Origin: a virus
IMG/VR virus record: IMGVR_UViG_3300046168_000070
Coordinates: 124,001-188,000 of that record
DNA: 64,000 bases
Reading direction: 5' to 3' (one strand)
Shown: piece by piece, positions 24,005-60,095 of the stretch
Position numbering within the stretch: the stretch's first letter is position 1
How the letters are laid out: the number at the start of each line of letters is the position of its first letter
The notes under the pieces: generated by a model
Databases searched by the model: none
What the model saw: only the letters and a program-made list of their open reading frames with translations
What the model was told of the DNA's origin: nothing
Translations under genes and position numbers: made by a program

Positions 24005-24006
24005 TT

Positions 24007-24012: not shown

Positions 24013-24020
24013 ATATATGT

Positions 24021-26496: not shown

Positions 26497-26502
26497 GTGT
26501 AA
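26497..26502 (+). promoter_or_regulatory. GTGTAA box, 2755-aa fibre gene
   Basis: GTGTAATT 9 nt before the ATG at 26512. An AGGAG at 26484-26488 lies 23 nt from the ATG, too far to act as its ribosome binding site. Confidence 0.55.
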
Positions 26503-29500: not shown

Positions 29501-32500
29501 GAAACTTTAATACAGGCGACGCAATTGCTGCAGGCATATTTGGTAGTGGCAATAGAAACTACGCGAACCATTCTTATATTTTTGGTAATGATAATTTAAA
29601 TACTAGTACCGCTTTTAAGTCAAATACAATAGGTGAAGACAATATTAATAACGGCGATAGATCTATTGTCTTAGGTAGTGGGAATATTAATAGCGGAACT
29701 TTTAGTGCGATTTTTGGGTATGGCAACGATAGCACAATATTAGCTGAAAGATCTCATGTATTTGGTATCGAGAACATAAGTAATGCAGAAGATTCTGTGA
29801 TGGTTGGTAGCGGTAATGAGAATAACGCTGTCGATAGCATGACCGTAGGTTATGGAAATTTAAACGAAGACGAAGCTGATGGTTCACATGTATTTGGTAG
29901 AATAAACACCTCCGATTCATTTAGAGCAACTACGGTTGGTAGTGGTAACTTTGTAAGTGGCAACTATGCGTCAACTGTAGGTTATGGTAATGATGTAACC
30001 ACGTCTGGCGTCAGAGCTCATACGATTGGTATGGAAAACGTAGCCAACGCAGAAGATTCTGTGATGGTTGGTAGCGGTAATGAGAATAACGCTGCTGACA
30101 GCATGACGGTAGGTTACGGAAACTTGAACGAAGATGATGCTGATGGTTCACATGTATTTGGTAGAATAAACACCTCCGATTCATTTAGAGCAACTACGGT
30201 TGGTAGTGGTAACTTTGTAAGTGGCAACTATGCGTCAACTGTAGGTTATGGCAATGATGTAACCACGGCTGGAGTAAGAGCTCATACGATTGGTATGGAA
30301 AACGTAGCCAACGCAGAAGATTCTGTGATGGTTGGTAGCGGTAATGAGAATAACGCTGCTGACAGCATGACGGTAGGTTACGGAAACTTGAACGAGGATG
30401 ATGCTGATGGTTCACATGTATTTGGTAGAATAAATACCTCCGATTCATTTAGAGCAACTACGGTTGGTAGTGGTAACTTTGTAAGCGGCAACTATGCGTC
30501 AACTGTAGGTTATGGCAATGATGTAACCACGGCTGGAGTAAGAGCTCATACGATTGGTATGGAAAACGTAGCCAACGCAGAAGATTCTGTGATGGTTGGT
30601 AGCGGTAACGAAAACAACGCTGCTGACAGCATGACGGTAGGTTACGGAAACTTGAACGAGGATGATGCTGATGGTTCACATGTATTTGGTAGAATAAACA
30701 CCTCCGATTCATTTAGAGCAACTACGGTTGGTAGTGGTAATTTTGTAAGTGGCAACTATGCGTCAACTGTAGGTTATGGCAATGATGTAACCACGGCTGG
30801 AGTAAGAGCTCATACGATTGGTATGGAAAACGTAGCCAACGCAGAAGATTCTGTGATGGTTGGTAGCGGTAATGAGAATAACGCTGCTGACAGCATGACG
30901 GTAGGTTACGGAAACTTGAACGAGGATGATGCTGATGGTTCACATGTATTTGGTAGAATAAATACCTCCGATTCATTTAGAGCAACTACGGTTGGTAGTG
31001 GTAACTTTGTAAGCGGCAACTATGCGTCAACTGTAGGTTATGGCAATGATGTAACCACGGCTGGAGTAAGAGCTCATACGATTGGTATGGAAAACGTAGC
31101 CAACGCAGAAGATTCTGTGATGGTTGGTAGCGGTAATGAGAATAACGCTGCCGATAGCATGACCGTAGGTTACGGAAACTTGAACGAGGATGATGCTGAT
31201 GGTTCACATGTATTTGGTAGAATAAACACCTCCGATTCATTTAGAGCAACTACGGTTGGTAGTGGTAATTTTGTAAGTGGCAACTATGCGTCAACTGTAG
31301 GTTATGGCAATGATGTAACCACGGCTGGAGTAAGAGCTCATACGATTGGTATGGAAAACGTAGCCAACGCAGAAGATTCTGTGATGGTTGGTAGCGGTAA
31401 TGAGAATAACGCTGCTGACAGCATGACGGTAGGTTACGGAAACTTGAACGAGGATGATGCTGATGGTTCACATGTATTTGGTAGAATAAATACCTCCGAT
31501 TCATTTAGAGCAACTACGGTTGGTAGTGGTAATTTTGTAAGTGGCAACTATGCGTCAACTGTAGGTTATGGCAATGATGTAACCACGGCTGGAGTAAGAG
31601 CTCATACGATTGGTATGGAAAACGTAGCCAACGCAGAAGATTCTGTGATGGTTGGTAGCGGTAACGAAAACAACGCTGCTGACAGCATGACGGTAGGTTA
31701 CGGAAACTTGAACGAGGATGATGCTGATGGTTCACATGTATTTGGTAGAATAAACACCTCCGATTCATTTAGAGCAACTACGGTTGGTAGTGGTAACTTT
31801 GTAAGTGGCAACTATGCGTCAACTGTAGGTTATGGCAATGATGTAACCACGGCTGGAGTAAGAGCTCATACGATTGGTATGGAAAACGTAGCCAACGCAG
31901 AAGATTCTGTGATGGTTGGTAGCGGTAATGAGAATAACGCTGCTGACAGCATGACGGTAGGTTACGGAAACTTGAACGAGGATGATGCTGATGGTTCACA
32001 TGTATTTGGTAGAATAAATACCTCCGATTCATTTAGAGCAACTACGGTTGGTAGTGGTAACTTTGTAAGCGGCAACTATGCGTCAACTGTAGGTTATGGC
32101 AATGATGTAACCACGGCTGGAGTAAGAGCTCATACGATTGGTATGGAAAACGTAGCCAACGCAGAAGATTCTGTGATGGTTGGTAGCGGTAATAAAAATA
32201 ACGAAGGAGACTCTTTTATAGCTGGTTATGGCAACGAAAATCATGCGCTAAATAGCATGACCGTAGGATACGGAAACTTAAATAAGGACGGCGCTGATGG
32301 CTCACACGTATTTGGTAGAAATAATACTTCTGATTCTTTTAGGGCTACAACTGTGGGTAGTGGTAATTTTATAACAGGCGATTATGCTTCTACGATTGGT
32401 TATAGAAATCATGTTACTTTGTTAGGAGAAAGAGCTCATACCTTTGGTATGGAAAATATTGCTAACGCTAAGGATTCAATATTAATAGGTAGTGGAAACT

Positions 32501-43780: not shown

Positions 43781-44138
43781 GGTTAAGGTAAATAAAGATG
43801 GAAAAAAAGTTTATAGAGAAATAGTTAATAAGACACATCCAGACAAATTGATAAATTCGACAGAGAGTGAGCGCGAAAACCTTAAGGAATTATATAATGA
43901 GGCCTCTATAGCTAAAAATAAAAATGATTTAGACTCTTTATTTCGTATTGCATCTAAATTAAATATTGAAAATGAGGATATAACAATTGACTCTATAAAT
44001 AGAATAGAAGAGCTAATAAAAGAAAAGGAAGACTATGTAGAAAAAATACATAAAGATGTAGCCTGGATATGGTATTACGCCAATAAAAAAGAAAGGGATA
44101 TAATATTGGAGAATATTTTTTCAAAAATGTGTAACTAA
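43752..44138 (+). CDS. J-domain-like co-chaperone, C-terminal part (frame-split)
   Basis: The open frame starts after a stop at 43749 and has no ATG; a TTG at 43848 is the only internal start candidate and would cut off the key motif. The sequence VYREIVNKTHPDKLINSTES carries the HPD tripeptide that J-domain proteins use to stimulate Hsp70 ATPase. It is followed by LKELYNEASIAKNKNDLDSL, a pattern seen in phage J-domain proteins. Placed among fibre genes, it might recruit host DnaK to fibre folding; that is an inference. I treat 43583-44138 as one gene with either a +1 frameshift or a one-base insertion. Confidence 0.65.
   Translation, partial: SIVQKQDEGKVKVNKDGKKVYREIVNKTHPDKLINSTESERENLKELYNEASIAKNKNDLDSLFRIASKLNIENEDITIDSINRIEELIKEKEDYVEKIHKDVAWIWYYANKKERDIILENIFSKMCN
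44130..44135 (+). promoter_or_regulatory. GTGTAA box, 341-aa fibre gene
   Basis: GTGTAACT 12 nt before the ATG at 44147, overlapping the last codons of the J-domain gene; there is no Shine-Dalgarno sequence. This is the weakest match, because the flank after GTGTAA differs from the others. Confidence 0.4.
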
Positions 44139-44146
44139 TAATAGCT

Positions 44147-45172
44147 ATGAGTTACATTCCAGAATATCACGAGAATTATTATAATGTAGAAGGTACTGCA
44201 TATAATCAAGGAAAAATAGGTATCGGTACATTTAAACCTATAGAATTACTCCATGTTAGTGGTGGAAATATACGTGTTGACGGTACGGGTTATATTGATG
44301 GAGACTTGAACGTAACTGGTAATTTAAATGTTTACGGAGAATCAACCATTGGTTATACTGAGACTGTGGCAGCTGAGGATAAGAATATTGAATTAAATGT
44401 TAAGACTGGCGCTATTGGATCTAATTCTCATGCGGGAGCACTAACTGATGATGTAGGCGCTCATGAAGGAGGATTAACAATCAAGAGTACGGATGGGGAT
44501 CATACGTGGAATTGGCTTAATGACAATACGGGAGAAATTGTAAAAGCTTGGTCTTCTAATGAAAATATAATAGCTACGGGAGATAATAAAATATTTTTTA
44601 GAGATACTGGGTTATTTATACATAGCCCTTCAGATGGATTACTTAGGCTGCATTCTGATAGAGATGTAGATGTTGTAGGCGACTTAAGAGCCCATAATAA
44701 TGTACACGTAGGAGAAAATTTGTATGTAAGTGGAAGCGGTTACATAAAAGATAATTTTTATATTTCTGGAAGCGGTTACGTCGAGAATAATCTTTATGTA
44801 TCTGGAAATAGTTACGTAGAAAATAATTTTTATCTAACTGGATCTGGATTTATAGAAGATGATTTATATATTTCAGGAAGCGGATTTATAGAAGACGAAC
44901 TACATGTTACTGGAAAAGGATTTTTTAATAATAGAATTGATATTAGCGGAAACTTAAATTTCACTGGAGAATTATCAGATCCTAATGATCCTGACTATAT
45001 ATTAAGCGGATTGAGATTTAATGATGTGCCTTGGCGACAAGCTATATGGGTGGATGCTCCAGCTACTCCATTATCGCAAGGAACTTCTGGAGAGATTGCT
45101 AACGATGATGATTATTTTTACGTTTGCGTTGGTGAAAATAATTGGAAAAGGTCTGCCTTAACAACTTGGTAA
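44147..45172 (+). CDS. Short tail fibre-like protein (341 aa)
   Basis: Starts with GKIGIGTFKPIELLHVSGG, the 'IGIGTxxPxxxLHV' block common in phage fibre proteins. It continues with GDLNVTGNLNVYGESTIG and a run of ~12-residue strands (LYVSGSGYIKDNFYISGSGY). The C-terminus, ANDDDYFYVCVGENNWKR, matches a cap sequence frequently found at phage fibre ends. The gene is compact and looks complete, a small version of the 1391-aa protein that follows. Confidence 0.75.
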   Translation: MSYIPEYHENYYNVEGTAYNQGKIGIGTFKPIELLHVSGGNIRVDGTGYIDGDLNVTGNLNVYGESTIGYTETVAAEDKNIELNVKTGAIGSNSHAGALTDDVGAHEGGLTIKSTDGDHTWNWLNDNTGEIVKAWSSNENIIATGDNKIFFRDTGLFIHSPSDGLLRLHSDRDVDVVGDLRAHNNVHVGENLYVSGSGYIKDNFYISGSGYVENNLYVSGNSYVENNFYLTGSGFIEDDLYISGSGFIEDELHVTGKGFFNNRIDISGNLNFTGELSDPNDPDYILSGLRFNDVPWRQAIWVDAPATPLSQGTSGEIANDDDYFYVCVGENNWKRSALTTW

Positions 45173-45181
45173 GAAAAAGAG

Positions 45182-48100
45182 ATGAGTATCCAAAGGGCAA
45201 TATTCATCAAGCTATCTGGGGCCGAGCCTTATGAAGGTGGAGACTGGAATGAATACCATGAATCGCCTGTATTTATAGACACCAGTAAAACTGGTATAAT
45301 TATTAGAGATGATTTCAATGTCAGTGGAGATGCATATTTTGATGCAGGATCATATTTTAGCGGGCATTTATATCAGCATGAAGATTATAATTCTTACCTA
45401 TCTGGCAAGCTTTATGTAAACAAAACTGGTTACGTTTCGGGGGACTTGAATGTATTAAGAAACTTAGATGTTTCTGGAGGCTTGGATGTATTGGGTGAGG
45501 TTTCTATTACTGGAGCTACTAGAATTGAGAATGATTTAAACGTAAGTGGTGATCTTGATATCACTGGGGATTCTTATTTACAGAGCAATTTATATTTAAA
45601 TAAAACAGGCTACATCACTGGCGACTTAAATATATTAGAAAAACTTCATGTATCTGGCGAGGGTAATTTTTATTCTGCCCCTAAGGTACATGATGATTTT
45701 TACGTAAGCGGAGACTCTATTTTATCGGGCAGTAAATACATTAGCGGACAATTAAATGTTTTAAATAAGGCTCATATATCTGGAGATTTAGTTGTAGAAC
45801 AAACTGGGTATATTGAAAAAGATTTGTTCGTTGGAGGAGATTTATTTGTTTCTGGTGAGAGAACTATCGTTAATACTTCTGAATTAGTTATAGAAGATAA
45901 GAATATACAGTTAGCCTGGTCTTCGGGGGATATAGGCAAATTTTCAAGAACTCAGTTAGATGGAGCAGGCATAACTATAGTTGCTACTGGAATTGATGGG
46001 GCGACTGAAGATATTTTATTCACTTATAATGAAGATTATGATGCTTTAGATAGTAATATAAATGTATTCATAGACAAAGATTTATTTGTAGAAAAAACAG
46101 GTCATCTAAATAATTTAATATCTTCTGGATATGCCTTATTTAAAGAAAATCTAAGGTTAGAGCAAACTGGTTATTTTGAAAATGATGTTTTTCTATCAAC
46201 TGGTTATGCTAAAGATATTGTTGTTTCTGGTACAGGTCATAATCAAGAGTTAATTGTTAGCGGCAATTCTACATTTAGAGATGATGTATTTCTGGAGACA
46301 ACAGGGTATGTCAGTGGAGATTTAGAGGTCACGGGAGATATTAGAGTGACTGGAGATGTTTATATTAGTGGTAATTTAGAGTTCAATCATGTGACTGTAC
46401 CAGGTAATTTTTATGTAAAAGATAAATTATATACAGAAGGTGGAGTAGTCTCTTCGGGAGATTTTATATTATCTAAAACTGGTTATGTTACTGGAGATTT
46501 TAATGTTCAAGACATACTAAGAGTTTCTGGTTCTGGTGACATACAAGAGCTTTTTGTAAATACAGGAAAAATTAATGACTTAGAGGTTTCTGGCGATGTT
46601 GATTTACAAGACATTGTAAAGATACACAGAACTGGATACGTAGGCGAATTACTAGAAGTTAGTGGAGCTTCTATACTTAAAGATAATTTGTATGTAGAAA
46701 AAACTGGATACATTGATGGAGATATTGATATTTCTGGAACAGGTTATATTACTGGGGATTTAAATGTAACGGGTGATGTAAGAATCACAGGCGATGTAAC
46801 TGTGGGGGGTACGTTTATTCCGCTTACTCACCAAAGTGTTCCTGGTGATTTTTATGTTGGTGATAAATTTTATGCTAAAAATGCTATCACCTCATCTGGC
46901 TACTTACTCTCTGAAGGTCAAATAACGGGGCAGCAAGGTTTAGTTGTCAGTGGATATAGTTATCTTTCAAATGTTGATTTAACTGGTGATTTAAATATTA
47001 GTGGAAGCGTAGATGTAACTGGAGATATAAGCTCCTCTGGAGATATAAAACATGTCGGTAATCTAGAATTATTAGGCGATGTAAATATTAGCGGAAATAT
47101 AGAAGAAACTGGGAATACTAATAAAACTGGAATAACTAACCATAAGGGAGATTTTAATTTAGATGGAAATCTGGATATTACAGGAGATCTTTTTGTAAAT
47201 GGAGATATATATAATACTGGAAATAATTTTATATTAGACACTACAACATTAAGAGTTTACGATAAAAATATTGAATTAGCTACTGGTAGTGGTTATATAG
47301 GATTAAGGAGAAATGAGTTAGAAGGCGCAGGCATTACAATTAAAGCTTCTGGAGAAAATAATGATATTACATTATTATATAAAAATTCTGATGTAGCATT
47401 ACATTCTAATGTATCTTTATTGACTTCAGGAAACCTAACATCAAGTAAAACAGGCTATATAGTAGGCGATCTAAATATAGGTAGAAATTTAGATGTTTCA
47501 GGTGATTCAAATTTAGAAAAAGATTTGTTTTTAGATCAAACAGGTTATATTTTAGGCGACCTTAATGTACTTAAAGACCTCGACATTTCTGGTAATGTAG
47601 ACATTTCTGGACAGACTACAATTACTGGAAAAACATTTTTACGTAGTGATACTCAATTAGATCAAACAGGTTATATACTTGGCGATCTTAATATACTCAA
47701 AGATCTTGACGTTTCTGGTAATGTAGATATCTCAGGACAAACTACGATCACTGGAGCAACTAGGATCGAGGATAAACTTGATGTCAGCGGTACTCTTGAT
47801 GTCACTGGAAAAACATTTTTACGTAGTGATACTCAATTAGATCAAACAGGTTATATACTTGGCGATCTCAATATACTCAAAGATCTTGACGTTTCTGGTA
47901 ATGTAGATATCTCAGGACAAACTACGATCACTGGAGCAACTAGGATCGAGGATAAACTTGATGTCAGCGGTACTCTTGATGTCACTGGAAAAACATTTTT
48001 ACGTAGTGATACTCAATTAGATCAAACAGGTTATATACTTGGCGATCTCAATATACTCAAAGATCTTGACGTTTCTGGTAATGTAGATATCTCAGGACAA

Positions 48101-49357
48101 ACTACGATCACTGGAGCAACTAGGATCGAGGATAAACTTGATGTCAGCGGTACTCTTGATGTCACTGGAAAAACATTTTTACGTAGTGATACTCAATTAG
48201 ATCAAACAGGTTATATACTTGGCGATCTCAATATACTCAAAGATCTTGACGTTTCTGGTAATGTAGATATCTCAGGACAAACTACGATCACTGGAGCAAC
48301 TAGGATCGAGGATAAACTTGATGTCAGCGGTACTCTTGATGTCACTGGAGAAACATTTTTACGTAGTGATACTCAATTAGATCAAACAGGTTATATACTT
48401 GGCGATCTCAATATACTCAAAGATCTTGACGTTTCTGGTAATGTAGATATCTCAGGACAAACTACGATCACTGGAGCAACTAGGATCGAGGATAAACTTG
48501 ATGTCAGCGGTACTCTTGATGTCACTGGAAAAACATTTTTACGTAGTGATACTCAATTAGATCAAACAGGTTATATACTTGGCGATCTTAATATACTCAA
48601 AGATCTTGACGTTTCTGGTAATGTAGATATCTCAGGACAAACTACGATCACTGGAGCAACTAGGATCGAGGATAAACTTGATGTCAGCGGTACTCTTGAT
48701 GTCACTGGAAAAACATTTTTACGTAGTGATACTCAATTAGATCAAACAGGTTATATACTTGGCGATCTCAATATACTCAAAGATCTTGACGTTTCTGGTA
48801 ATGTAGATATCTCAGGACAAACTACGATCACTGGAGCAACTAGAATCGAGGATAAACTTGATGTTAGCGGTACTCTTGATGTCACTGGAGAAACATTTTT
48901 ACAAAGCGATCTCTACGTTGGTCAAACTGGCTATATAACTGGAGACTTAAATGTCAGTGGCGCTGGTAGATATGGAGATGATGTCTTACTGGAAAATAGT
49001 CAAAGCGGGCTCGCTATAGCAGCAATAAACGGAGTCGGCACAGGTATAAGGATTAATGATTGGATTATTGAGCACGATATCATACAGCCAGATACTGTTA
49101 ATAAATCATTTAGCGAATTATTGGTAAATGGTCCAAACGCTAGTGATATTATATCAATGAATGCAAGCGTATATAGAAATGCAGATAGTATAGCGTATTC
49201 TGTTTACTCTGTAGCTAATCCTTCTCAGTCTCCTGATGGCCCAGGATACAATTTTGAGATATCTTATAGTGGTACAACTGTTAAAGTAGTGGATCTAGAC
49301 GATGCTTTAGAAATATCTGATAAAGTTTATGTAGATATAAAATATAAAGTTATTTAG
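45182..49357 (+). CDS. Giant GDLNVSG-repeat fibre protein (1391 aa)
   Basis: Almost the whole protein is built from ~12-residue beta-helix units of the type TGYITGDLNVSGDLDVTG. Two longer blocks containing EDKNIQLAWSSGDIG and DKNIELATGSGYIG interrupt the helix; the same block occurs in the 341-aa neighbour (EDKNIELNVKTGAIG). Residues ~821-1240 are seven almost identical 60-aa units (LDQTGYILGDLNILKDLDVS ... ITGATRIEDKLDVSGTLDVT). The C-terminal ~110 residues form a different, non-repetitive domain (GTGIRINDWIIEHDIIQPDT). A purine-rich AAAAAGAG precedes the ATG. Its 3' end overlaps the convergent gene by 4 nt. Confidence 0.8.
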   Translation: MSIQRAIFIKLSGAEPYEGGDWNEYHESPVFIDTSKTGIIIRDDFNVSGDAYFDAGSYFSGHLYQHEDYNSYLSGKLYVNKTGYVSGDLNVLRNLDVSGGLDVLGEVSITGATRIENDLNVSGDLDITGDSYLQSNLYLNKTGYITGDLNILEKLHVSGEGNFYSAPKVHDDFYVSGDSILSGSKYISGQLNVLNKAHISGDLVVEQTGYIEKDLFVGGDLFVSGERTIVNTSELVIEDKNIQLAWSSGDIGKFSRTQLDGAGITIVATGIDGATEDILFTYNEDYDALDSNINVFIDKDLFVEKTGHLNNLISSGYALFKENLRLEQTGYFENDVFLSTGYAKDIVVSGTGHNQELIVSGNSTFRDDVFLETTGYVSGDLEVTGDIRVTGDVYISGNLEFNHVTVPGNFYVKDKLYTEGGVVSSGDFILSKTGYVTGDFNVQDILRVSGSGDIQELFVNTGKINDLEVSGDVDLQDIVKIHRTGYVGELLEVSGASILKDNLYVEKTGYIDGDIDISGTGYITGDLNVTGDVRITGDVTVGGTFIPLTHQSVPGDFYVGDKFYAKNAITSSGYLLSEGQITGQQGLVVSGYSYLSNVDLTGDLNISGSVDVTGDISSSGDIKHVGNLELLGDVNISGNIEETGNTNKTGITNHKGDFNLDGNLDITGDLFVNGDIYNTGNNFILDTTTLRVYDKNIELATGSGYIGLRRNELEGAGITIKASGENNDITLLYKNSDVALHSNVSLLTSGNLTSSKTGYIVGDLNIGRNLDVSGDSNLEKDLFLDQTGYILGDLNVLKDLDISGNVDISGQTTITGKTFLRSDTQLDQTGYILGDLNILKDLDVSGNVDISGQTTITGATRIEDKLDVSGTLDVTGKTFLRSDTQLDQTGYILGDLNILKDLDVSGNVDISGQTTITGATRIEDKLDVSGTLDVTGKTFLRSDTQLDQTGYILGDLNILKDLDVSGNVDISGQTTITGATRIEDKLDVSGTLDVTGKTFLRSDTQLDQTGYILGDLNILKDLDVSGNVDISGQTTITGATRIEDKLDVSGTLDVTGETFLRSDTQLDQTGYILGDLNILKDLDVSGNVDISGQTTITGATRIEDKLDVSGTLDVTGKTFLRSDTQLDQTGYILGDLNILKDLDVSGNVDISGQTTITGATRIEDKLDVSGTLDVTGKTFLRSDTQLDQTGYILGDLNILKDLDVSGNVDISGQTTITGATRIEDKLDVSGTLDVTGETFLQSDLYVGQTGYITGDLNVSGAGRYGDDVLLENSQSGLAIAAINGVGTGIRINDWIIEHDIIQPDTVNKSFSELLVNGPNASDIISMNASVYRNADSIAYSVYSVANPSQSPDGPGYNFEISYSGTTVKVVDLDDALEISDKVYVDIKYKVI
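47641..48900 (+). repeat. 180-bp tandem repeat (7 units)
   Basis: Seven near-identical 180-bp units starting at 47641, 47821, 48001, 48181, 48361, 48541 and 48721, differing at only a few positions (for example GGAAAAACA versus GGAGAAACA). A partial unit precedes them at about 47540-47640. The frame is kept, 60 codons per unit. Confidence 0.97.
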
Positions 49358-49731
49358 AAATCAATTTTAAAGTTTTTAGTATCTATTGTTTTTTTATCTA
49401 AGTGATGTTTTGTGCCGTTTCGTTTTTTTGCATAATCCTTGAAGTATTTCTGCTTAACTGGATCAACTCCTCCGTTTTGATCTGCTCTTTTTGCTGAAAG
49501 TTCTGCACTAGCATCCATCATATCTCCGATAGTGCCTTTTTTGTTTTTTGTTTTATTTACAAAATCATTATTGTCCCAAGGGTTTATGGGTGCCTCAGTA
49601 TTTAAGTTCGGAGAGTGGTATACTCGCTGCCATTTAACGCCGTCAATTTCTAACATTTTTTCTTCGTCCATATGAAAAAAGGCTTCTTTGTACTTTTCTT
49701 TTTTAGGGTGCTTGAATAAGTAAATGGGCAT
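49354..49731 (-). CDS. Small FmdB-like phage protein lacking zinc-ribbon cysteines (125 aa)
   Basis: The opening (MPIYLFKHPKKEKYKEAFFH) and the segment MLEIDGVKWQRVYHSPN resemble small phage proteins related to the FmdB family, but there are no cysteines, so no zinc ribbon can form. The rest is polar, with GTIGDMMDASAELSAKRADQ as a possible helix. The start overlaps the glycosyltransferase stop (TAATG). It is the last gene of the minus-strand metabolism operon. Function unknown. Confidence 0.5.
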   Translation of the reverse strand: MPIYLFKHPKKEKYKEAFFHMDEEKMLEIDGVKWQRVYHSPNLNTEAPINPWDNNDFVNKTKNKKGTIGDMMDASAELSAKRADQNGGVDPVKQKYFKDYAKKRNGTKHHLDKKTIDTKNFKIDF

Positions 49732-50807
49732 TACATTATAGAATTAAGTAAAATGTCAACTGTATTTGAGTATGTAAATTTATTCGCTGTATCTAAGCCC
49801 TTTTCATTTTTTTGTTTAGCAAGCGACTCAGCCTTCTCGAAAGCTTCATTTATAGCATCCTGTTCAAAAAGATTTATTGAGCCTTGATTATATGGGGCTC
49901 CTTTGTTAAAGAATTGCCCATCATGAGCGAGAGCTTTATTGGACGGCTCGACAATAATTGCGTTTTCTGAGTTAGCCCAATCCTTGTGACTAGTGTGATT
50001 TAAAACTAAACTCCACTTTCCTAGACATGTAGAATTAAACGCAGGAAGATTCCATCCTTCTGCTCCACTCATCCCTGATAAATCTACATCAATTGCATTG
50101 AGGAAATCATTAACTTCTGAATTAGTTTTTAATCTAGGTAAAAAAGAAATGTTTGAAAAAGTTTTCCCGCCAAAAAGAATATTCAATCTTTGATTAAGTT
50201 CGCCCTTCTTGAAGAATGGATTTTCGATTACACAAGTTAGTCTGAATTTATTATTATCTCCATATTTATCTGCCCAAGCTTTCAATATTAAATCGTGATT
50301 TTTTCTTTTTTCATATTTACCCATTAATCCAAAATGAATTATATCATCAGATAGATATTGTTTATCTGTTACGCAAAAGTCTTCATCGAAGCCCATTGGG
50401 CAAAAAGATATGTTTTTACATGAATCTTTAAAACAATCAACAGCGTGAGAAGAACTAAAAAACACATGGTCTTGAAAATTTACCAAGGTTTTTTCTTGCT
50501 CTGTAGGCTCATCTGTTTCATAAAAAGTTAATAAATTTTGATTTTTGGAGATTCTGTTTTCAGAGCCGTTAATATGCCAAAGTGATAATGTAGGTAAATC
50601 TTTATCTAGCTTTGAGTATCTATTATTAATGGACTCCTGCACCCAATTTTTAAGTTCCTCCTCCATTTTATCGAAAGCAGAGATATCTACATTACCATGC
50701 GGGAATATTTTAGTATCAATATTTTTTTTATGCAATTGCCTTATTATATTGTAGGCTACATTTCCAAATGAAAGTGAATTAATTGGGCATTTTAAAATTA
50801 AACTCAT
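49731..50807 (-). CDS. GT-B glycosyltransferase (358 aa)
   Basis: Glycosyltransferase family 4-like layout. The C-terminal nucleotide-sugar domain has GLMGKYEKRKNHDLILKAW (160-178) and an SGAEGWNLPAFNSTCLG stretch (247-263) with the E250 typical of the donor-binding ExxxxxP/E region. The N-terminal half contains LWHINGSENRI and TFYETDEPTEQEK. Phages use such enzymes to modify their own DNA or host surface sugars; nothing here says which. It is the second-last gene of the operon, 28 nt after the SNase-like gene. Confidence 0.8.
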   Translation of the reverse strand: MSLILKCPINSLSFGNVAYNIIRQLHKKNIDTKIFPHGNVDISAFDKMEEELKNWVQESINNRYSKLDKDLPTLSLWHINGSENRISKNQNLLTFYETDEPTEQEKTLVNFQDHVFFSSSHAVDCFKDSCKNISFCPMGFDEDFCVTDKQYLSDDIIHFGLMGKYEKRKNHDLILKAWADKYGDNNKFRLTCVIENPFFKKGELNQRLNILFGGKTFSNISFLPRLKTNSEVNDFLNAIDVDLSGMSGAEGWNLPAFNSTCLGKWSLVLNHTSHKDWANSENAIIVEPSNKALAHDGQFFNKGAPYNQGSINLFEQDAINEAFEKAESLAKQKNEKGLDTANKFTYSNTVDILLNSIM

Positions 50808-50835: not shown

Positions 50836-51180
50836 TCAATAGCTTTTTTTATGTAAATGACCTTTTGCTAACATAATTTCATTTATGCTATTATTTTTAT
50901 TTTTATCTGTATAGAGAATTCCAAGGACTCTGCCAAATTTACCACAGCCAAAAGATTCTAGGTAAATTTCATTATTCAATGAAATGATATTTTTTAAAAA
51001 ATCTTTAGATTTTAAACCTAGCTCTTTTTCTTCTTTATTCCTAGTTCTTGTTTCTGGTGCATTCACTCCAAAAAAGCGAATTCTTTTTTCTACGAAAGTA
51101 TTAAATCCTAGGTCTATTACCGCATCTACAGTGTCTCCGTCAAGAACTTTAATTATTGATTTTATTTTATAGTAATACAT
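50836..51180 (-). CDS. Staphylococcal nuclease-like (SNase) protein (114 aa)
   Basis: SNase fold landmarks are VLDGDTVDAV (calcium-site Asp), RIRFFGVNAPET (catalytic Arg and Glu) and GKFGRVLGILY (second Arg). The usual Asp before the A/TPE motif is Asn here (VNAPET), a change also known in active relatives. I start at the ATG that overlaps the SSB stop by 1 nt; a TTG one codon upstream is the alternative. No signal peptide, so it acts in the host cytoplasm, perhaps in DNA degradation or processing. At about 114 aa it is close to a minimal SNase domain. Confidence 0.8.
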   Translation of the reverse strand: MYYYKIKSIIKVLDGDTVDAVIDLGFNTFVEKRIRFFGVNAPETRTRNKEEKELGLKSKDFLKNIISLNNEIYLESFGCGKFGRVLGILYTDKNKNNSINEIMLAKGHLHKKSY

Positions 51181-51593
51181 CAAAAAGGTATATCTTCCAT
51201 TTGAGCATAATCTTCTGCGTCATCTTCAATAAATACTGATTCATCTTTAGGTTTTTCTACTTTTAATGTACTAGGTTTAGCTTGTGTATTGTCAGCTAAT
51301 TCGTATTTAAGTAATTTTATATAATCTACTAAGCAGTATAATCTTGAGCGAGTTTGATTATCTTTAGTTTTCCAAGAGTTGTATCTCATTTTACCATCAA
51401 TTAATACAGGCTTACCTTTCTTGAGTTGAGGAAAGCAGTATTCCGCTTTCTTGCCCCAAACTTCAGCATCTATATATGTAACGGTATCCATTTCGTTAAC
51501 CGCAAGAGTAAAATTTACTACTAACATATCATTTTTAACTTTCTTAGCTACGGCATCTTTTGTCAAATTACCCATTCCTGTATATCTATTCAT
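51180..51593 (-). CDS. ssb: Single-stranded DNA-binding protein
   Basis: OB-fold SSB: MNRYTGMGNLTKDAV opening, VVNFTLAVNE, a GKKAEYCFPQLKKGKPVLID segment, a low-complexity linker, and a C-terminal acidic tip ending MEDIPF. That tip is the docking site by which bacterial SSBs recruit replication and repair partners. It overlaps the sigma-factor gene by 8 nt and the SNase-like gene by 1 nt, as part of one tightly packed minus-strand operon. At 137 aa it is slightly shorter than typical bacterial SSB. Confidence 0.92.
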   Translation of the reverse strand: MNRYTGMGNLTKDAVAKKVKNDMLVVNFTLAVNEMDTVTYIDAEVWGKKAEYCFPQLKKGKPVLIDGKMRYNSWKTKDNQTRSRLYCLVDYIKLLKYELADNTQAKPSTLKVEKPKDESVFIEDDAEDYAQMEDIPF

Positions 51594-52182
51594 TTACTTT
51601 TACTATTCTCCTTAATTCTTTAATTGTTTTTTTATGAAGGTTAATGCAACCTTGTATTGACATTCCTATTTCTTTATGTATCAATCGCCATGGTTTTATT
51701 TTATTATCTTTATAGGAAAAGTATCTTAGATCAAAAATTTTCTTAACTCTTTGATCTTTATGATTTTCTAAGTATTCATTAATTCTTTTAAATAACTCCT
51801 TGCTATCAGATTTAATTATATTTGACACATGCTCTTCTTCGCTCAAGAATGAAATCCAATCTAATTTCATTTCTTCACAATTTACTTCAGGTTTCTTTTT
51901 GTTTTTGTTGTATGTGTTTAAGCATAAATATTTAGCTTGATTACCTAAGTGTGTTACAAATTTTACGTTTTTTGAGAAATCGAAACTCTTAATAGCTTTA
52001 TAAATTTGATAGTTTTTTTCCGAAAGTAAATCATCCCTGTTTGAGTATTCACTATTCTCTGGTACGTAATGCTTAACCATTTCTATAAAGATTCCAGAGT
52101 GCTTATCTATTATTTTAGATAGGTTTGATTCTACGTTTTTCTCTTCTTGTATTTCTTTAATAACTGAATCTTCTTCAATCAT
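51586..52182 (-). CDS. Phage RNA polymerase sigma factor (198 aa)
   Basis: A region-2-like segment runs through NRDDLLSEKNYQIYKAIKSF and DFSKNVKFVTHLGNQAKYL, matching the DDLxQEGxxGLxxAIxxFDxxKGxKFxTY pattern. A C-terminal region-4-like helix-turn-helix (LIHKEIGMSIQGCINLHKKT) ends the protein. Its length is close to that of the T4 late sigma factor gp55 (185 aa). It is a good candidate to read the recurring GTGTAA box in front of the structural genes; this link is my inference. ATGA overlap with dUTPase. Confidence 0.75.
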   Translation of the reverse strand: MIEEDSVIKEIQEEKNVESNLSKIIDKHSGIFIEMVKHYVPENSEYSNRDDLLSEKNYQIYKAIKSFDFSKNVKFVTHLGNQAKYLCLNTYNKNKKKPEVNCEEMKLDWISFLSEEEHVSNIIKSDSKELFKRINEYLENHKDQRVKKIFDLRYFSYKDNKIKPWRLIHKEIGMSIQGCINLHKKTIKELRRIVKVNE

Positions 52183-52706
52183 AATCCTGTACTACCAAAA
52201 CCCCCCATGTTTCTTTCTGTTTTTTTCTTATTATCATTCATACCTTCAATTTTTATTAAATTATGTTTCGAGAATATTACTTGCCCTATCTTGTCGCCCT
52301 TTTGGTATATTTTTTCTTCGTTTATACTTGTTAAACTAACTAAAACACCATCATCATTTTTTATTGTATGAATGTCTTCTGGTTGATATATGTATTTAAA
52401 TCTTAATTTAATTGAGTCTCTATAACCAGAGTCTATTACTCCAACACTATTACATAATAATAGATTATACCTACTGACACTAGACCTAGGGAATACATTG
52501 GCGTAGAACTCATACTCTCCCCATGCATCTTGAAAGTCAAATTCTACTGCAGTATCATATTCTATATAAGATATGCTTTTATATAGATTTGCCATCCATA
52601 GGTCTCCTGTTATTTTAGGTTGGCTCGCTGCGATTATATCATATCCAGCATCTCCATGATTTTGGGGAGCTACAATATTGTGAGAATTGTTGATTTTAAG
52701 ATTCAT
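52179..52706 (-). CDS. dut: dUTP diphosphatase (dUTPase)
   Basis: Hydrolyses dUTP to dUMP, keeping uracil out of DNA and feeding dTMP synthesis. All five trimeric dUTPase motifs are present in order: DAGYDI (19-24), PRSSVS (73-78), GVIDSGYRD (89-97, catalytic Asp92), KGDKIGQVIF (136-145) and GGFGSTG (168-174). A ~25-residue insertion between motifs 1 and 2 (DLWMANLYKSISYIEYD region) makes it longer than the ~150-aa bacterial enzyme. It overlaps neighbours by 4 and 11 nt. It pairs functionally with the ribonucleotide reductase across the divergent region. Confidence 0.93.
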   Translation of the reverse strand: MNLKINNSHNIVAPQNHGDAGYDIIAASQPKITGDLWMANLYKSISYIEYDTAVEFDFQDAWGEYEFYANVFPRSSVSRYNLLLCNSVGVIDSGYRDSIKLRFKYIYQPEDIHTIKNDDGVLVSLTSINEEKIYQKGDKIGQVIFSKHNLIKIEGMNDNKKKTERNMGGFGSTGL

Positions 52707-53013
52707 TTTGAATTTGATTTATGATTTGGTCAAGATCCTTAGATAGATCATGAAGACCTGCGTTTGATAAAATTTTAGGAGAATAACAAAATGAACATAT
52801 ATCCATATTTTGATCACTTTTTGAAAATTCTGATAAATTTGTAACCATAATTGTTGGAGATATTTTCATGTCCAAATCTTTATTATATATTTCAGTTACA
52901 GCTTTAGTTGCAGCCTCCACTTCACTTTCTGACTTAACTACAGACTCCCAGTTTGCCGAACTTACTAAATATAGTTTTTTGCGTTTTTCTTTTTCTGAAT
53001 TTCTAAATGTCAT
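52696..53013 (-). CDS. Small hypothetical protein, first gene of the metabolism operon (105 aa)
   Basis: I use the ATG at 53011-53013 because the -10 element lies immediately upstream (53020-53025); a longer TTG start would overlap the promoter. The product begins MTFRNSEKEKRKKLYLVSSA and has one CxxC pair (DICSFCYSPK), not enough for a zinc ribbon alone. No family is recognised. With the start this close to the -10, the mRNA leader would be only a few nt. Confidence 0.55.
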   Translation of the reverse strand: MTFRNSEKEKRKKLYLVSSANWESVVKSESEVEAATKAVTEIYNKDLDMKISPTIMVTNLSEFSKSDQNMDICSFCYSPKILSNAGLHDLSKDLDQIINQIQNES

Positions 53014-53019
53014 GATTAA

Positions 53020-53048
53020 ATCATATACGAAAATTAACTCCAAGTCAA
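53020..53048 (-). promoter_or_regulatory. Sigma70-like promoter of the 53013-49354 operon
   Basis: On the minus strand, TTGACT (53048-53043), a 17-nt spacer and TATGAT (53025-53020). Both hexamers differ from consensus at one position and the spacing is ideal. Transcription would start only a few nt before, or at, the ATG at 53013. Confidence 0.75.
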
Positions 53049-53204: not shown

Positions 53205-54107
53205 ATGAACTACAAAAGATTATCCTCGCAGAATCACCCAATAGACATTTCATTTCAAACAGTTAAAACAGTATATTCGAGCAATAATACTCCTAAAATA
53301 GAAATTTTAAAAATCAAAGATAATGGTTTATGCTTGACAATGGAAGACGATATTCAATTCTTGGAATCTCAGCATGAAACTTACCACGAAGTTTTTGCTC
53401 ACACACCTTGCAGGTATTCGGAAAAGATCGAAGACATACTAATTCTTGGAGGTGGAGATGGAGGGGTCGCTACAGAAATATTAAAATACCCATCAGTTCA
53501 AACGATTACCATTGTAGACTTATCGAAAGATGTGGTCGATTTATGCTTGAAATATTTTCCTGAAATTTCAAATGGCTTACTAGATTCCAGAACGGAAATA
53601 ATTTACGATAATGCTTGTTCATGGATTAAGGATCAAAAAAAACAATATGACTTAATTTATATAGATACGACGGATTTTAACTTTAAGCACGAAAATGAAA
53701 ATACAATACTAGATCCGTCTTGTGCTGAGTCAAAGAAGATGAACTTAAGAGATTCCAATAATGTATTCAGCTGTATTAAAAACTTAAAAGAGAACGGTGT
53801 ATTGACATTCAATCATGATTTCTGTGGTCTGGATGCTCACTCAATTTATGTAAAAGAAAACTTCCTCAGGCAAAAGTTTAAAGACACGTTACCATTTACC
53901 TCAAATATACCATACTTCCCAGGGAACCAATACTGCTTCATAATGTGCAGTTTAAAAGAACTCAAAAAATTCAACCAATTAGATTTTTCAATAAACGACA
54001 TAGATACAAGGATTTATAATCGAAATTCGCATCTAGCATCTCTTTTCATTAGTAAAGAGTACGAAGATTTATTCCCTGGCTTACAGATGAATATAGAAAA
54101 ATGTTAA
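53205..54107 (+). CDS. speE: Spermidine synthase-like aminopropyltransferase (300 aa)
   Basis: Family landmarks in order: TMEDDIQFLESQHETYHEVF (45-64), corresponding to the DGxxQxxxxDExxYHExL signature; ILGGGDGGVATEILKY (80-95), the nucleotide-binding loop; VDLSKDVVDLC with acidic Asp105; YDLIYIDTTD (148-157) with catalytic-site Asp154; and PYFPGNQYCFIMCSL near the C-terminus. Length is normal for the family. It would transfer aminopropyl from decarboxylated SAM to putrescine; no SAM decarboxylase gene is in the window. Polyamines neutralise packaged DNA, a plausible benefit to the phage. It stands alone between two AT-rich gaps. Confidence 0.82.
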   Translation: MNYKRLSSQNHPIDISFQTVKTVYSSNNTPKIEILKIKDNGLCLTMEDDIQFLESQHETYHEVFAHTPCRYSEKIEDILILGGGDGGVATEILKYPSVQTITIVDLSKDVVDLCLKYFPEISNGLLDSRTEIIYDNACSWIKDQKKQYDLIYIDTTDFNFKHENENTILDPSCAESKKMNLRDSNNVFSCIKNLKENGVLTFNHDFCGLDAHSIYVKENFLRQKFKDTLPFTSNIPYFPGNQYCFIMCSLKELKKFNQLDFSINDIDTRIYNRNSHLASLFISKEYEDLFPGLQMNIEKC

Positions 54108-54190: not shown

Positions 54191-54196
54191 GTGTAA
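54191..54196 (+). promoter_or_regulatory. GTGTAA box, nrdA
   Basis: GTGTAAAA 10 nt before the nrdA ATG, downstream of a separate sigma70-like promoter. If the box is a late promoter, nrdA would be transcribed both early and late. Confidence 0.5.
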
Positions 54197-54206
54197 AATA
54201 ATATTC

Positions 54207-56657
54207 ATGGAAATAAAGGTTAAGAAAAGAAACGGAAGACTTGAAAATTTTGAAGTAGAAAAAATTAATGCAAGCGCAGAGAGAGCATGTAAAGATATAT
54301 CAGATGTATCTCCTAGCGAAATCATACTAGATGCACAATTGCAATTATATGATAAAATTACAACAAAAGAGATAGATCAAGCTTTAATTCTATCCGCTAG
54401 AGAGAAGATAGAGAAAGAGCCTAATTACTCATTCGCAGCCGCACAACTACTATTAAACAATGTGTACAAAGAAGTCTTCAAAGAGGGCGTGGATTCAGAC
54501 ACCTTTAAACTCCAATACAGGAAAAACTTTATACAAAATATTAAAAAATTAGTCAAGCTTGATAGGTTGGATAAAAGATTGTTAGATTTTGACTTAATCA
54601 AACTATCAGAAGCTATTAAAATAAGTAGAGATAAAAAATTCAAATACTTAGGGATTCAAATACTGACCGACAGATATTTCATTAGAGAGGATAAGAAAAT
54701 AATGGAAGCTCCTCAAAGTTTTTGGATGAGAGTTTCAATGGGTCTAGCTATAAATGAACAAGATAAAAACGAAAAAGCTATTGAGTTCTATAATTTAATC
54801 AGCAGCATGCTGTATACCCCCTCAACCCCAACTTTATTCAACAGTGGCACAACTCACTCCCAACTTAGCTCTTGTTATCTTAATACTTTTGATGACAGTA
54901 TTGACGGTATTTTTGACGGCGCTTGGCAAGAAGCTCGTAAGTCAAAATACGCTGGTGGTCTTGGTCTTGATGTTACCCCTTTTCGTTCTACAGGCTCTCA
55001 TATTCAGGGAACTAACGGTATCTCTAGTGGGCTTGTGCCTTGGCTTAAAATATATAACGATCTTCTAGTCGCTGTCAACCAAGGAGGCAAGAGGCCAGGT
55101 GCAGGATGTGCTTACCTAGAGCCTTGGCACCTAGACTTCGAAGATTTTCTAAATTTAAGAAGGAATACTGGAGATGATAGATTGCGTTGCCATGATATGA
55201 ATACAGCATCCTGGGTTCCTGATGAATTTATGCGTAGAGTCCAAAATGAAAAATCTTGGTACTTTTTTGACCCCAGAGACACAGTCGATGAAGAAGGTAA
55301 AACTTTACACGATCACTTTGGCCGAGGCTTCGATGATCGCTATAATAAACTATGCAAACAAGCGGATGAAGGCTTGATTAAAAATTATAGAGTTATCCCC
55401 GCAAAAGAATTATGGAAAAAAATGCTTAAAGTTTTATTTGAAACATCTCATCCATGGAATACATTTAAAGACCCATGCAACATTCGGTATACAAATCAGC
55501 ATGAAGGAGCAGTAAGAAGTTCTAACTTATGTACTGAAATTACCTTGCACACCAAATCCTCGAAATACAAAAGTGGGCAAAAAACTGAAGTCGGTGAAAC
55601 TGCAGTTTGTAATTTAGGCTCAGTTAATTTAACCAACCACTTAATTGAGAAAACAAACCACGGTTCTTCAAGTTACACAATTGATTACAAAAAGCTGGAA
55701 TCGACTATTCATACCGCGATTAGAATTTTAGATAATGTAATTGATATAAACTTTTATCCCACTAAAGAAGCAGAGAACTCTAATCTCAGACATCGGCCAA
55801 TCGGATTAGGCATGATGGGATTACATGATATACTCCACGCCCTTAACATTCAAATTGACAGTGATGAAGCTGTTAAATTTAACGATAAATTATTCGAGTT
55901 CTACTCCTGCCATGCTATTTATGCTAGCTCAAAATTAGCAAAAGAAAAAGGTTCCTATAAAACTTATGAAGGTTCATTATGGAGTCAAAATATTCTGCCG
56001 ATAGATTCTTTTAATAATTTAATGGAATACAGGAAGAGTAGCAAAAAGGGCTCTGAAACAATTAAGGATTGGGAAAAAGTTAGGAAGCATATCGCTGAAT
56101 TTGGAATGAGAAATTCAAACGTTATGGCTATAGCTCCAACAGCAACAATTGGTTATATTAATGGAATTGAGCAAAGTATCGAACCTAATTTTTCAGTACT
56201 CTTTGTTTATGAAAATAAAAGTGGAAACTTTTATATAACTAATCCTCATTTTGTTAAAGACATGAAGGATAGAGATCTCTGGTCTCCAGAAATATCTACG
56301 TTAGTTAAAAATGTAGATGGCGATCTTTCCTTATTAAACGGATCAATTCCCGAAGATCTAAAAGATAAATACAAAACCGCCTTCGATAGAGATATGATTA
56401 AATTAATCGACTGTAATTCTGTTCGTCAAAAATGGATAGATCAAGCAGTAAGCTTTAATTTATACAATAAAACTACATCCCTTAAGTATTTAAATGATAT
56501 ATATATGGCTTCTTGGGAAGCTGGACTTAAAACAACATATTACTTAAGAAATAGGGCCGCAAGTAAAGTTGAAAAATCAACAGAGGAATCGAAAGAAGCA
56601 TCAGCATGTAGTATTGAAGCAATGAAAAATGGTGAAGCTTGTGAAAGCTGCCAATAA
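54207..56657 (+). CDS. nrdA: Class Ia ribonucleoside-diphosphate reductase, large subunit (816 aa)
   Basis: Reduces ribonucleoside diphosphates to deoxy forms. An ATP-cone regulatory domain fills residues 1-90 (KKRNGRLENFEVEKI). Active-site residues are complete: Cys223 and Cys468 redox pair, Asn440-Cys442-Glu444 (SNLCTEI), the radical-relay tyrosines Tyr778-Tyr779 (TTYYLRNRA), and the C-terminal swinging cysteines Cys812 and Cys815 (ACESCQ). The paired tyrosines mark class I, so it needs an NrdB partner; none is encoded in this window. It is followed directly by a Nudix gene (TAATG overlap). Confidence 0.95.
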   Translation: MEIKVKKRNGRLENFEVEKINASAERACKDISDVSPSEIILDAQLQLYDKITTKEIDQALILSAREKIEKEPNYSFAAAQLLLNNVYKEVFKEGVDSDTFKLQYRKNFIQNIKKLVKLDRLDKRLLDFDLIKLSEAIKISRDKKFKYLGIQILTDRYFIREDKKIMEAPQSFWMRVSMGLAINEQDKNEKAIEFYNLISSMLYTPSTPTLFNSGTTHSQLSSCYLNTFDDSIDGIFDGAWQEARKSKYAGGLGLDVTPFRSTGSHIQGTNGISSGLVPWLKIYNDLLVAVNQGGKRPGAGCAYLEPWHLDFEDFLNLRRNTGDDRLRCHDMNTASWVPDEFMRRVQNEKSWYFFDPRDTVDEEGKTLHDHFGRGFDDRYNKLCKQADEGLIKNYRVIPAKELWKKMLKVLFETSHPWNTFKDPCNIRYTNQHEGAVRSSNLCTEITLHTKSSKYKSGQKTEVGETAVCNLGSVNLTNHLIEKTNHGSSSYTIDYKKLESTIHTAIRILDNVIDINFYPTKEAENSNLRHRPIGLGMMGLHDILHALNIQIDSDEAVKFNDKLFEFYSCHAIYASSKLAKEKGSYKTYEGSLWSQNILPIDSFNNLMEYRKSSKKGSETIKDWEKVRKHIAEFGMRNSNVMAIAPTATIGYINGIEQSIEPNFSVLFVYENKSGNFYITNPHFVKDMKDRDLWSPEISTLVKNVDGDLSLLNGSIPEDLKDKYKTAFDRDMIKLIDCNSVRQKWIDQAVSFNLYNKTTSLKYLNDIYMASWEAGLKTTYYLRNRAASKVEKSTEESKEASACSIEAMKNGEACESCQ

Positions 56658-57140: not shown

Positions 57141-57617
57141 ATGTCACAGTTAAATAAAGGAATGGGTAGCTCCTTAACGAACCCGATAACTAGAGAAGAA
57201 ATATTCAGTCCGATAGAGTCTTTCTTGGATTCTTTCTTTAATGATTCGCTTTCAGCTCTATCAACTTCGTCAGGTATTTCTGTATACGATAAATACAGTT
57301 ACCCTAAAGTTGATATTATACAGAATGAAAAAGATATGTTAATCGAAGCAGAAATCCCTGGGTTATCTAAAGAAGATGTATCGGTTGAGTTAGAGAAGAA
57401 TATCCTAACGATATCAGGCGTATCCAGAAAAGATAAGTCCTCAGATAAATCAAACTACATACGTAGAGAGATAAAACGTTCTTCTTTTAAAAGATCATTC
57501 ACAATATCCGACTCTTTAAATAAAGAAAAAATTAAAGCTGATTTTAAAGATGGAATATTAAATATTACTATACCTAAAAATAAACCAGATTCTGTAAAAA
57601 AATTAAAAATATTATAA
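57141..57617 (+). CDS. hsp20: Hsp20 / alpha-crystallin small heat shock protein (158 aa)
   Basis: An alpha-crystallin domain spans residues ~50-150: PKVDIIQNEKDMLIEAEIPG, LSKEDVSVELEKNILTISG, then the signature ADFKDGILNITIPK. The N-terminal arm is Phe/Ser-rich (SFLDSFFNDSLSALS). The C-terminus VKKLKIL may serve as the IxI-type anchor. Such ATP-independent holdases keep unfolding proteins soluble and are well known in marine phages, where they are linked to virion assembly. It has a normal ribosome binding site (AAAAGGAAT), unlike most genes here. Confidence 0.92.
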   Translation: MSQLNKGMGSSLTNPITREEIFSPIESFLDSFFNDSLSALSTSSGISVYDKYSYPKVDIIQNEKDMLIEAEIPGLSKEDVSVELEKNILTISGVSRKDKSSDKSNYIRREIKRSSFKRSFTISDSLNKEKIKADFKDGILNITIPKNKPDSVKKLKIL

Positions 57618-58929: not shown

Positions 58930-58935
58930 GTGTAA
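58930..58935 (+). promoter_or_regulatory. GTGTAA box, lamin-tail fibre gene
   Basis: GTGTAATATTCTAT then ATG: box 8 nt from the start, no Shine-Dalgarno sequence. Nearly the same string (GTGTAATATCTTAT) precedes the S74 fibre gene on the other strand at 3128-3141. Confidence 0.65.
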
Positions 58936-58943: not shown

Positions 58944-60095
58944 ATGAGTATTGTGAGATTTAGCGACTTACCACAAAAAAATAATCCAGATACAGGGGAT
59001 TTTATAGTTGGTCACGAAAATACATCTTTTGTTGATGAAAAAAAATATTCTATAAAAGATATTTTTTCTTTATACTCTGCCTTAGATCAGGAAGTCTCTG
59101 GCAAAAGAATTTTTCACGACATAGAGTATGCAGGAGGATTAACAATTGATGATATTTCTGGGATAGATAAACAAGTTTCATCAGTAATTAAAAGAAACCC
59201 TATAGAATTTATAGGCAGCCCTGGAGACCACTCCACTCCCAGAGCATGGATAAACGAGATACACTACGACAATAGATGTATAGATGTCAAGGAGTTCGTT
59301 GAAGTTTGTGGTCACACAGGAGTAGATCCAAAAAGGCTTACAATTATACATTATAACTCCGATGGATATATGCATCGGTTACCTGATTTTTGCGAAAAAG
59401 ATGGTTGTCTAGAACCACAACCTTTAACGTATACATTAACAGGGGACGTATTTTCAAATCAAGTAGGCGATTTTGGTTTCGAAATAGCTCCAATGATCGG
59501 CCTATCAAATGACAAGGATTACGGATTTGCATTAGTATATGACTATGAACAGTCTGGAGAAAAAGTCATACAACTAATTAGTTACGAAGGTAGTGGGCAC
59601 CAATTATCATTTGTAGGAAAAGAAGGTCCAGCCTCAGGATTAAGATCGCATGATATAATTGTAAATCAAGATCCAGACATGCAAGAAATTTTGTGTGAAG
59701 ATTTAAGGACACTACAATTATTTGGAACAGGTAACAGATATTCTGACTTCGAATGGAGATTCCCTACTTTAGATCAAACTGAAACTAGTGGCTACTTAAA
59801 CCATGACCAAGGATTTAAATTTGTGGATGGCGATGTAGATAAAACTCCTTTAGAATCAAGATTAGGAGTAAACACAAAACATCCACTAGATACACTACAT
59901 GTAAAAGGAGGTATAACTGCAGAAGGTAATTTATTAATTTACGGTCCAGACTCTGGTCATTATGGAGAGCATAGAAATACAATCGTTCGAATAGAAAATC
60001 TTCCATCTGAATTAGACTTTCATGATATACCGCCAAATACTTTATACCGAAGCGGGCACCATTTAATGGTAAAACCAACAGACTTAAGAGATTAA
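58944..60095 (+). CDS. Virion fibre protein with lamin-tail-like domain (383 aa)
   Basis: N-terminal shared module (VRFSDLPQK ... DFIVGHENTS). Residues ~100-270 match the bacterial lamin-tail domain found in secreted nucleases and surface proteins: AWINEIHYDNRCIDVKEFVE, then QLISYEGSGHQL, GPASGLRSHDIIVNQD and TGNRYSDFEWRFP. The C-terminus has LGVNTKHPLDTLHVKGGITA, a fibre-type block. No nuclease motif accompanies the domain, so it is probably a binding module on the virion. It is followed 2 nt later by the holin-like gene. Confidence 0.7.
   Translation: MSIVRFSDLPQKNNPDTGDFIVGHENTSFVDEKKYSIKDIFSLYSALDQEVSGKRIFHDIEYAGGLTIDDISGIDKQVSSVIKRNPIEFIGSPGDHSTPRAWINEIHYDNRCIDVKEFVEVCGHTGVDPKRLTIIHYNSDGYMHRLPDFCEKDGCLEPQPLTYTLTGDVFSNQVGDFGFEIAPMIGLSNDKDYGFALVYDYEQSGEKVIQLISYEGSGHQLSFVGKEGPASGLRSHDIIVNQDPDMQEILCEDLRTLQLFGTGNRYSDFEWRFPTLDQTETSGYLNHDQGFKFVDGDVDKTPLESRLGVNTKHPLDTLHVKGGITAEGNLLIYGPDSGHYGEHRNTIVRIENLPSELDFHDIPPNTLYRSGHHLMVKPTDLRD

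Follow-up and report, generated by a model that had tools for sequence, protein, structure and literature searches.

A sigma70-family protein and a GTGTA(A/T) box as candidate components of a late-transcription system in large uncultured phages

Introduction

A large, uncultured phage of apparently mostly marine provenance encodes a sigma70-family protein, sigma1, and carries a short element, GTGTA(A/T), at a preferred distance upstream of the start codons of genes whose recognisable members are mostly virion genes. Protein and element appear to represent a new sigma family and a new late box, which would work much like T4 gp55 and its promoters but have no detectable kinship with them. It is highly probable that some phage sigma factor reads the box; that sigma1 is its main reader is a tentative assignment, to which we give slightly less than an even chance, and a second sigma-like protein of the same phage, sigma2, has to be weighed against it.

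The window is a stretch of 64,000 nucleotides, bases 124001-188000 of a 193,844-bp IMG/VR virus record (G000). We compared this phage with a related phage of 203 kb (G001), with a distant relative of 205 kb (G008) and with G018 and G022, which complete our set of five long genomes (194-205 kb). The features under discussion are collected in Table 1.

Results

Identity and domain structure of sigma1

The first-pass annotation of the window described a 198-aa sigma-like protein with regions 2 and 4, similar in length to T4 gp55 (185 aa), and this description is borne out by profile and structure comparisons. The NCBIfam model TIGR02937 (sigma70-ECF) covers residues 21-192 of sigma1 (E 5.2e-9) and is matched by 37 of the 47 family members; the Pfam model Sigma70_r2 gives a weak match to the single sequence (E 7e-4; 19.8 bits, below the cut-off of 24 bits). 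In PDB profile searches FliA was matched at E 1.2e-5, over region 2, with a 12-sequence sigma1 profile, and at E 4e-4 with a 47-sequence profile. The AlphaFold model consists of two confident helical domains, the helices spanning residues 144-195 being predicted with high confidence, and Foldseek ranks sigma factors first among its matches (sigma32, E 5e-5, probability 1.00), with two-domain sigma factors matched. Because TIGR02937, the PDB profiles, AlphaFold and Foldseek agree, we assign sigma1 to the sigma70 family as a protein having both region 2 (residues ~46-97) and region 4 (~141-195), joined by a low-confidence linker (~99-124). Region 2 homology is seen in the TIGR02937 and FliA matches, and the region 4 helix-turn-helix in the extension of the TIGR02937 match to residue 192, in the predicted helices and in the Foldseek result.

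Relatives of sigma1 are encoded on at least 134 IMG/VR stretches. The G001 protein is 81% identical to the G000 copy and the G008 protein ~30% identical. Conservation was scored on the best 80 of the at least 134 relatives, which at 85% identity gave a non-redundant set of 43. Strict or almost strict conservation is seen, among other positions, at K74-F75-x-T77, N81, C87-L88, D143, R145, R153-Y154 and W165, as well as in a region 4 helix of the form S-x-Q-G-C-I-N-x-H. Two conserved motifs doubled as search seeds, and one of them sufficed for a locus to be taken, yet the members possess both. A tblastn search of phage records with sigma1 yielded no convincing homologue (the best match was a faecal contig lacking annotation, E 3e-3), and neither did searches of phage records with two distant family members. 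On contig L110 (5995-6551) the sigma1 homologue is broken after 62 codons, with similarity going on beyond the break, an interruption that we read as a frameshift or an assembly error. Homologues also occur in MAG-binned contigs (L217-L221; Flavobacteriaceae, Flavobacteriales, Halobacteriovorax, Lokiarchaeota), which are probably phage contigs of doubtful binning; since these relatives are scattered over bacterial and archaeal bins, we claim no host.

With FliA, sigma32 and the ECF factors sigma1 has in common the architecture of regions 2 and 4, the KF[SV]T motif in region 2.3 and the fold. It differs from them in having no tryptophan pair in region 2.3, in its distinct region 4 helix, and in being phage-borne and adjoining genes for a single-strand DNA-binding protein (SSB) and a dUTPase. 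The N-terminal half of sigma1 weakly matches phage sigma factors of phrog_351 (E 0.0094 for the window protein, 0.00089 for that of G001), a family that includes the 'FliA' of Bacillus phage Goe20; that protein is, however, much longer (343 aa) and belongs to another phage group, and tblastn gave no significant similarity (E 0.8).

The operon that encodes sigma1

The operon runs from a 106-aa protein through dUTPase, sigma1 and SSB to a nuclease-like protein, a glycosyltransferase-like protein and a 125-aa protein. The gene order is identical in G001, and in G008 sigma1 still lies immediately upstream of ssb. The operon had been said to use an ordinary TTGACT/TATGAT promoter and no GTGTAA box, which is confirmed in the window and holds across a family of very diverged members: of 41 non-redundant loci, 28 have a TTGAC-type promoter ahead of the operon (shuffles: mean 3.3, maximum 8) and none has a GTGTAA box there (shuffles: mean 3.5). 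In the window no GTGTAA stands at a promoter position within the operon, and the lone copy, at 50228-50233 on the minus strand, falls inside the glycosyltransferase coding sequence; the latter gene has a TTGAAT-N16-TATAAT of its own (50839-50812). From the 28 promoters and the complete want of boxes we conclude that sigma1 belongs to the early genes and not to the box regulon. Beside the operon lie a spermidine-synthase-like gene (53205-54107), nrdA and an Hsp20 gene (57141-57617).

Table 1. Features of the window and of the sigma2 locus. Positions are those of the window unless prefixed by the record.
Feature	Position	Strand	Remarks
GTGTAA box	536-541	-	Upstream of a gene continuing past the window edge
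GTGTAA box	3136-3141	-	8 nt before tail-fibre gene 2342-3127
GTGTAA box	18021-18026	-	Precedes 2949-aa ORF 9158-18007
GTGTAA box	20283-20288	-	27 nt before ORF 19965-20255; back to back with 20303-20308
GTGTAA box	20303-20308	+	Precedes ORF 20318-20764
GTGTAA box	24007-24012	+	After a terminator-like hairpin; precedes likely true start of ORF 23994-26492
GTGTAA box	26497-26502	+	Precedes 2755-aa ORF 26512-34779
GTGTAA box	44129-44134	+	Precedes tail-like ORF 44147-45172
GTGTAA box	54191-54196	+	Precedes nrdA 54207-56657; kept in G001
GTGTAA box	58930-58935	+	8 nt before ORF 58944-60095
125-aa protein, function unknown	49354-49731	-	Final operon gene
Glycosyltransferase-like protein	49731-50807	-	phrog_2170, 1e-17
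Staphylococcal-nuclease-like protein	50836-51183	-	Pfam SNase, 4e-11
SSB	51180-51593	-	Pfam SSB, 8e-19; directly 3' of sigma1
sigma1	51586-52182	-	198 aa, ATG start; sigma70-family protein
dUTPase	52179-52706	-	Pfam dUTPase, 4e-13; phrog_135
First operon gene, function unknown	52696-53013	-	~106 aa from ATG 53013; ORF tool starts it at TTG 53043
Host-type promoter of sigma1 operon	53020-53048	-	TTGACT (53048-53043), N17, TATGAT (53025-53020), 6 nt, first-gene ATG (53013)
sigma2	G000:C1:108553-109338		Outside the window, near phoH and terminase; ~240-260 aa, Zn-binding insert

A positioned GTGTA(A/T) box

The raw number of GTGTAA copies in the window (17, with 28 expected by chance) is under expectation and was dropped as evidence for a box; the signal therefore lies in position rather than in number. 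Ten of the 17 sit no more than ~30 nt ahead of a start codon, and when the 35 nt preceding each gene were compared over 132 kb of G000, GTGTAA came out as the 6-mer with the highest enrichment (25 genes against 1.4 expected). In 12 of these 25 it lies exactly 8 nt from the start codon, and in none is it nearer. Across genomes the spacing is likewise one-sided, with a mode of 8 nt and only rarely a shorter distance, and it is similarly fixed in G008, in G012 and, judged from a small number of sites, in G022, which is richer in GC.

An unconstrained EM motif refinement drifted away from the box in four genomes; counts of fixed patterns with shifted controls were used instead. The box pattern (N4-14) outnumbers its reversed counterpart by 30 to 10 in G000 and by 41 to 16 in G001; with N8 the counts over sixteen contigs are 48 and 5, and in 28 contigs picked solely for the presence of sigma1, GTGTAA-N8/9-ATG occurs 106 times and its reverse 18 times. 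Control stretches from T4, S-PM2 and SPO1 have no enrichment of the pattern. Around sigma2 loci both GTGTAA (40 against 3.3 expected) and GTGTAT (22 against 2.3) are enriched, and the core is therefore GTGTA(A/T). G018 is a natural variant: it carries sigma1, has few exact boxes, and upstream of its genes (L114-L118) often uses GTGTAT or GTGTAC. A literature search for GTGTAA as a phage promoter returned nothing relevant.

Two of the genes in the region contain repeats. The 2755-aa ORF has a 264-bp periodicity, visible as antisense ORFs of 84 aa each that recur every 264 bp, and is a long tandem-repeat structural gene. A tail-fibre-like gene of 1391 aa at 45182-49357 contains near-identical ~180-bp repeats; its counterpart in G001 (L003 10831-13905) encodes 1024 aa, and the repeat number therefore appears to vary.

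Two probable promoter classes

Genes of the early type are preceded by TTGAC-N17-TATAAT, and the distance from TATAAT to the ATG is often 3-8 nt. Promoters of this kind stand in front of the genes for DnaB and dNMP kinase, a DNA-polymerase-like gene and the UvsX operon; DnaB, primase, UvsX, dNMP kinase and RIIA are genes with a host-type promoter or members of operons that have one. Where a boxed gene has recognisable relatives, it is a virion or tail gene, with the exception of nrdA, a nucleotide-metabolism gene that is boxed in both G000 and G001. The earlier observation that structural genes carry the box is confirmed, with 10 of 17 GTGTAA upstream of starts, and is qualified by the under-chance count and by nrdA.

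At 66 non-redundant sites no second conserved element resembling a -35 partner was found 16-18 nt upstream of the box. None of the 52 boxed genes has a Shine-Dalgarno-like motif, against 4 of 68 genes with TTGAC promoters and 66 of 294 operon-internal genes. Apart from TTGAC and a weak Shine-Dalgarno signal, no further upstream motif class emerged from the five genomes or the wider loci. TTGAW promoters, with just 0-3 such genes per genome, are not supported as a 'middle' class in their own right. Since the early TATAAT occupies nearly the same place, the box seems to stand in for the -10 element, and the one-sided spacing of 8 nt upward, with rare exceptions, is the pattern expected of near-leaderless transcripts. 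The placement of the box is thus in keeping with a -10 element in late promoters that yield near-leaderless transcripts.

A multisubunit RNA polymerase encoded by the phage was considered as box reader and dropped, as the genome contains no match under a search that detected its positive controls; a search for a T7-type polymerase gave no match either, but its controls also went undetected.

A second sigma-like protein

The phage also encodes, beyond the window, sigma2, which has a recognisable sigma region 2 (Pfam 24.4 bits; phrog_1740) and a predicted ECF-like fold of two domains with a conserved four-cysteine insert. Its relatives occur on no fewer than 96 IMG/VR stretches. A search of 50,697 phage records gave no match to sigma2 and none to the portal protein. 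A small Zn-ribbon gene overlaps the sigma2 start (G000:C1:108285-109338; L011 6285-7338), and this pair, retained in nearly all sigma2 loci, has a promoter of the TTGA[AT] type and never of the TTGAC type. Upstream of the pair, often right behind a GTGTA box, lies a conserved 195-aa protein of unknown function (phrog_14038; G000:C1:107664-108251, L011 5664-6251). The nearby terminase region (G000:C1:110946-113740; L011 8946-11740) contains overlapping ORFs of 309 and 662 aa in different frames, which could reflect a frameshift, the insertion of a gene or an error in the sequence.

All five long genomes carry both sigmas together with the box. The sigma2 operon has a GTGTA box at most loci; counting its second gene alone, GTGTA[ATC]-N7-10 stands upstream at 18 of 32 (shuffles 0.15). 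A strict TTGAC scan had suggested that sigma2 has the box only and no host-type promoter; a looser scan overturned this, with TTGA[AT]-N16/17-TATAAT preceding the Zn-ribbon-sigma2 pair at 20 of 31 loci (shuffles 1.5). The argument from operon layout is therefore weakened. Over region 2.3-2.4 the G000 and G008 proteins, which face the same box, are 73% identical for sigma2 and 34% identical for sigma1.

Discussion

The first-pass annotation proposed sigma1 as a candidate reader of the box, with the layout expected of an early-expressed late sigma factor. Its membership of the sigma70 family, its host-type promoter and its co-occurrence with the box agree with that proposal, but sigma1 is not the sole candidate, because sigma2 co-occurs with the box equally well and is better conserved in the region that would read a -10 element. 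Operon layout speaks for sigma1 as the earlier of the two to act, and conservation of region 2.3-2.4 for sigma2 as the reader. Further points count against sigma1: it retains an invariant region 4 helix where the box lacks a -35 element, exact boxes are few in the sigma1-bearing G018, and nrdA, a non-virion gene, is boxed too.

The strongest competitor, somewhat less likely in our estimation although sigma2 is almost as good a candidate as sigma1, is that sigma2 reads the box. The boxed operon of sigma2 would then provide positive feedback and its host-like promoter a basal supply, with sigma1 employed otherwise. The presence of sigma2 alongside the box in every long genome, the box and promoter in its operon and the conservation of its putative box-reading region all argue for this arrangement, which on the other hand leaves no promoter class over for sigma1 and relies on a protein with weaker sequence evidence as a sigma factor (PDB profile E 0.26; model pLDDT 68). 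Rather improbable in our estimation is a requirement for both, either sequentially on one box, with sigma1 starting and sigma2 amplifying, or as a pair like SPO1 gp33-gp34: the joint presence of the two, a single non-host promoter class to share between them and the boxed sigma2 operon would all suit it, but each protein has a separate region-2-like domain, so that neither resembles a mere accessory. That GTGTAA is instead a signal for translation or RNA processing is very unlikely, for although it occupies the Shine-Dalgarno site of genes that have no Shine-Dalgarno motif, its spacing is one-sided, as if the start codon had to follow the transcription start, divergent gene pairs have one on each strand, the early TATAAT takes much the same place, and box and TTGAC mark different functional classes.

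With sigma1 as the main reader, we suggest the following scheme, in which core binding, box reading, the flap contact and the transcription start site are all inferred from sequence. Early and replication genes would be transcribed from host-type TTGAC-N17-TATAAT promoters, and sigma1 would be among the early products. Its region 2 would bind host core RNA polymerase, the region 2.3-2.4 helix would read GTGTA, and region 4 would touch the beta flap rather than a -35 sequence. Polymerase would thereby be redirected to the late, mostly virion genes, where the -35-less GTGTA(A/T) box would act as -10 element and transcripts would start at the start codon or 1-2 nt before it, giving near-leaderless mRNAs. 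The operon holding sigma2 would be among these targets, and sigma2 may then amplify or sustain the late switch.

The closest functional parallel is T4 gp55, which acts with gp33 and gp45: in both cases a phage-encoded sigma70-type factor would serve late genes that are mostly virion genes. Late promoters in T4 consist of a single -10-type box with no -35 element (PMC2988020), as at the sites described here. The parallel drawn in the first-pass annotation holds for length and proposed role and does not extend to detectable homology: the genome has no match to phrog_234 (T4 gp55) at E<=1, and hhalign of sigma1 with gp55 gives a probability below 1%. The box is GTGTA(A/T) rather than the TATAAATA of T4 and lies far nearer the start codon, and sigma1 has a region 4, whereas gp55 has no domain 4 and the flap-binding part comes from gp33.

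SPO1, with gp28 and gp33/gp34, offers another likeness, in that one large phage has two phage sigma-type proteins and expresses its early sigma from host-type promoters. SPO1 gp34 (197 aa) aligns weakly with sigma1 over 45 region-2 columns (hhalign probability 16%, E 0.0016 for the single pair), a similarity that we take as a lead only, and gp28 has no similarity to sigma1 by hhalign. The middle and late promoters of SPO1 possess both -35 and -10 elements, whereas no -35 element lies upstream of the box here.

The proposal supplies an uncultured phage lineage with a late-transcription system that is specific enough to be tested, and the box can serve directly to annotate late genes in such contigs. 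The broadest form of the proposal is that widespread large aquatic phages have a single-chain, two-domain sigma factor, a -35-less GTGTA box and near-leaderless late mRNAs, apparently evolved independently of T4, with a Zn-insert sigma2 under box feedback; taken as a whole, we think it unlikely to hold in every part. If true, sigma1 would be a natural 'fused' late sigma, of the kind that a review reports as not found in the T4 family (PMC2988020), and would bear on the question raised there of why T4-type late sigmas comprise two proteins. Two phage sigmas and one box would also provide a ready case in which to set a cascade against amplification.
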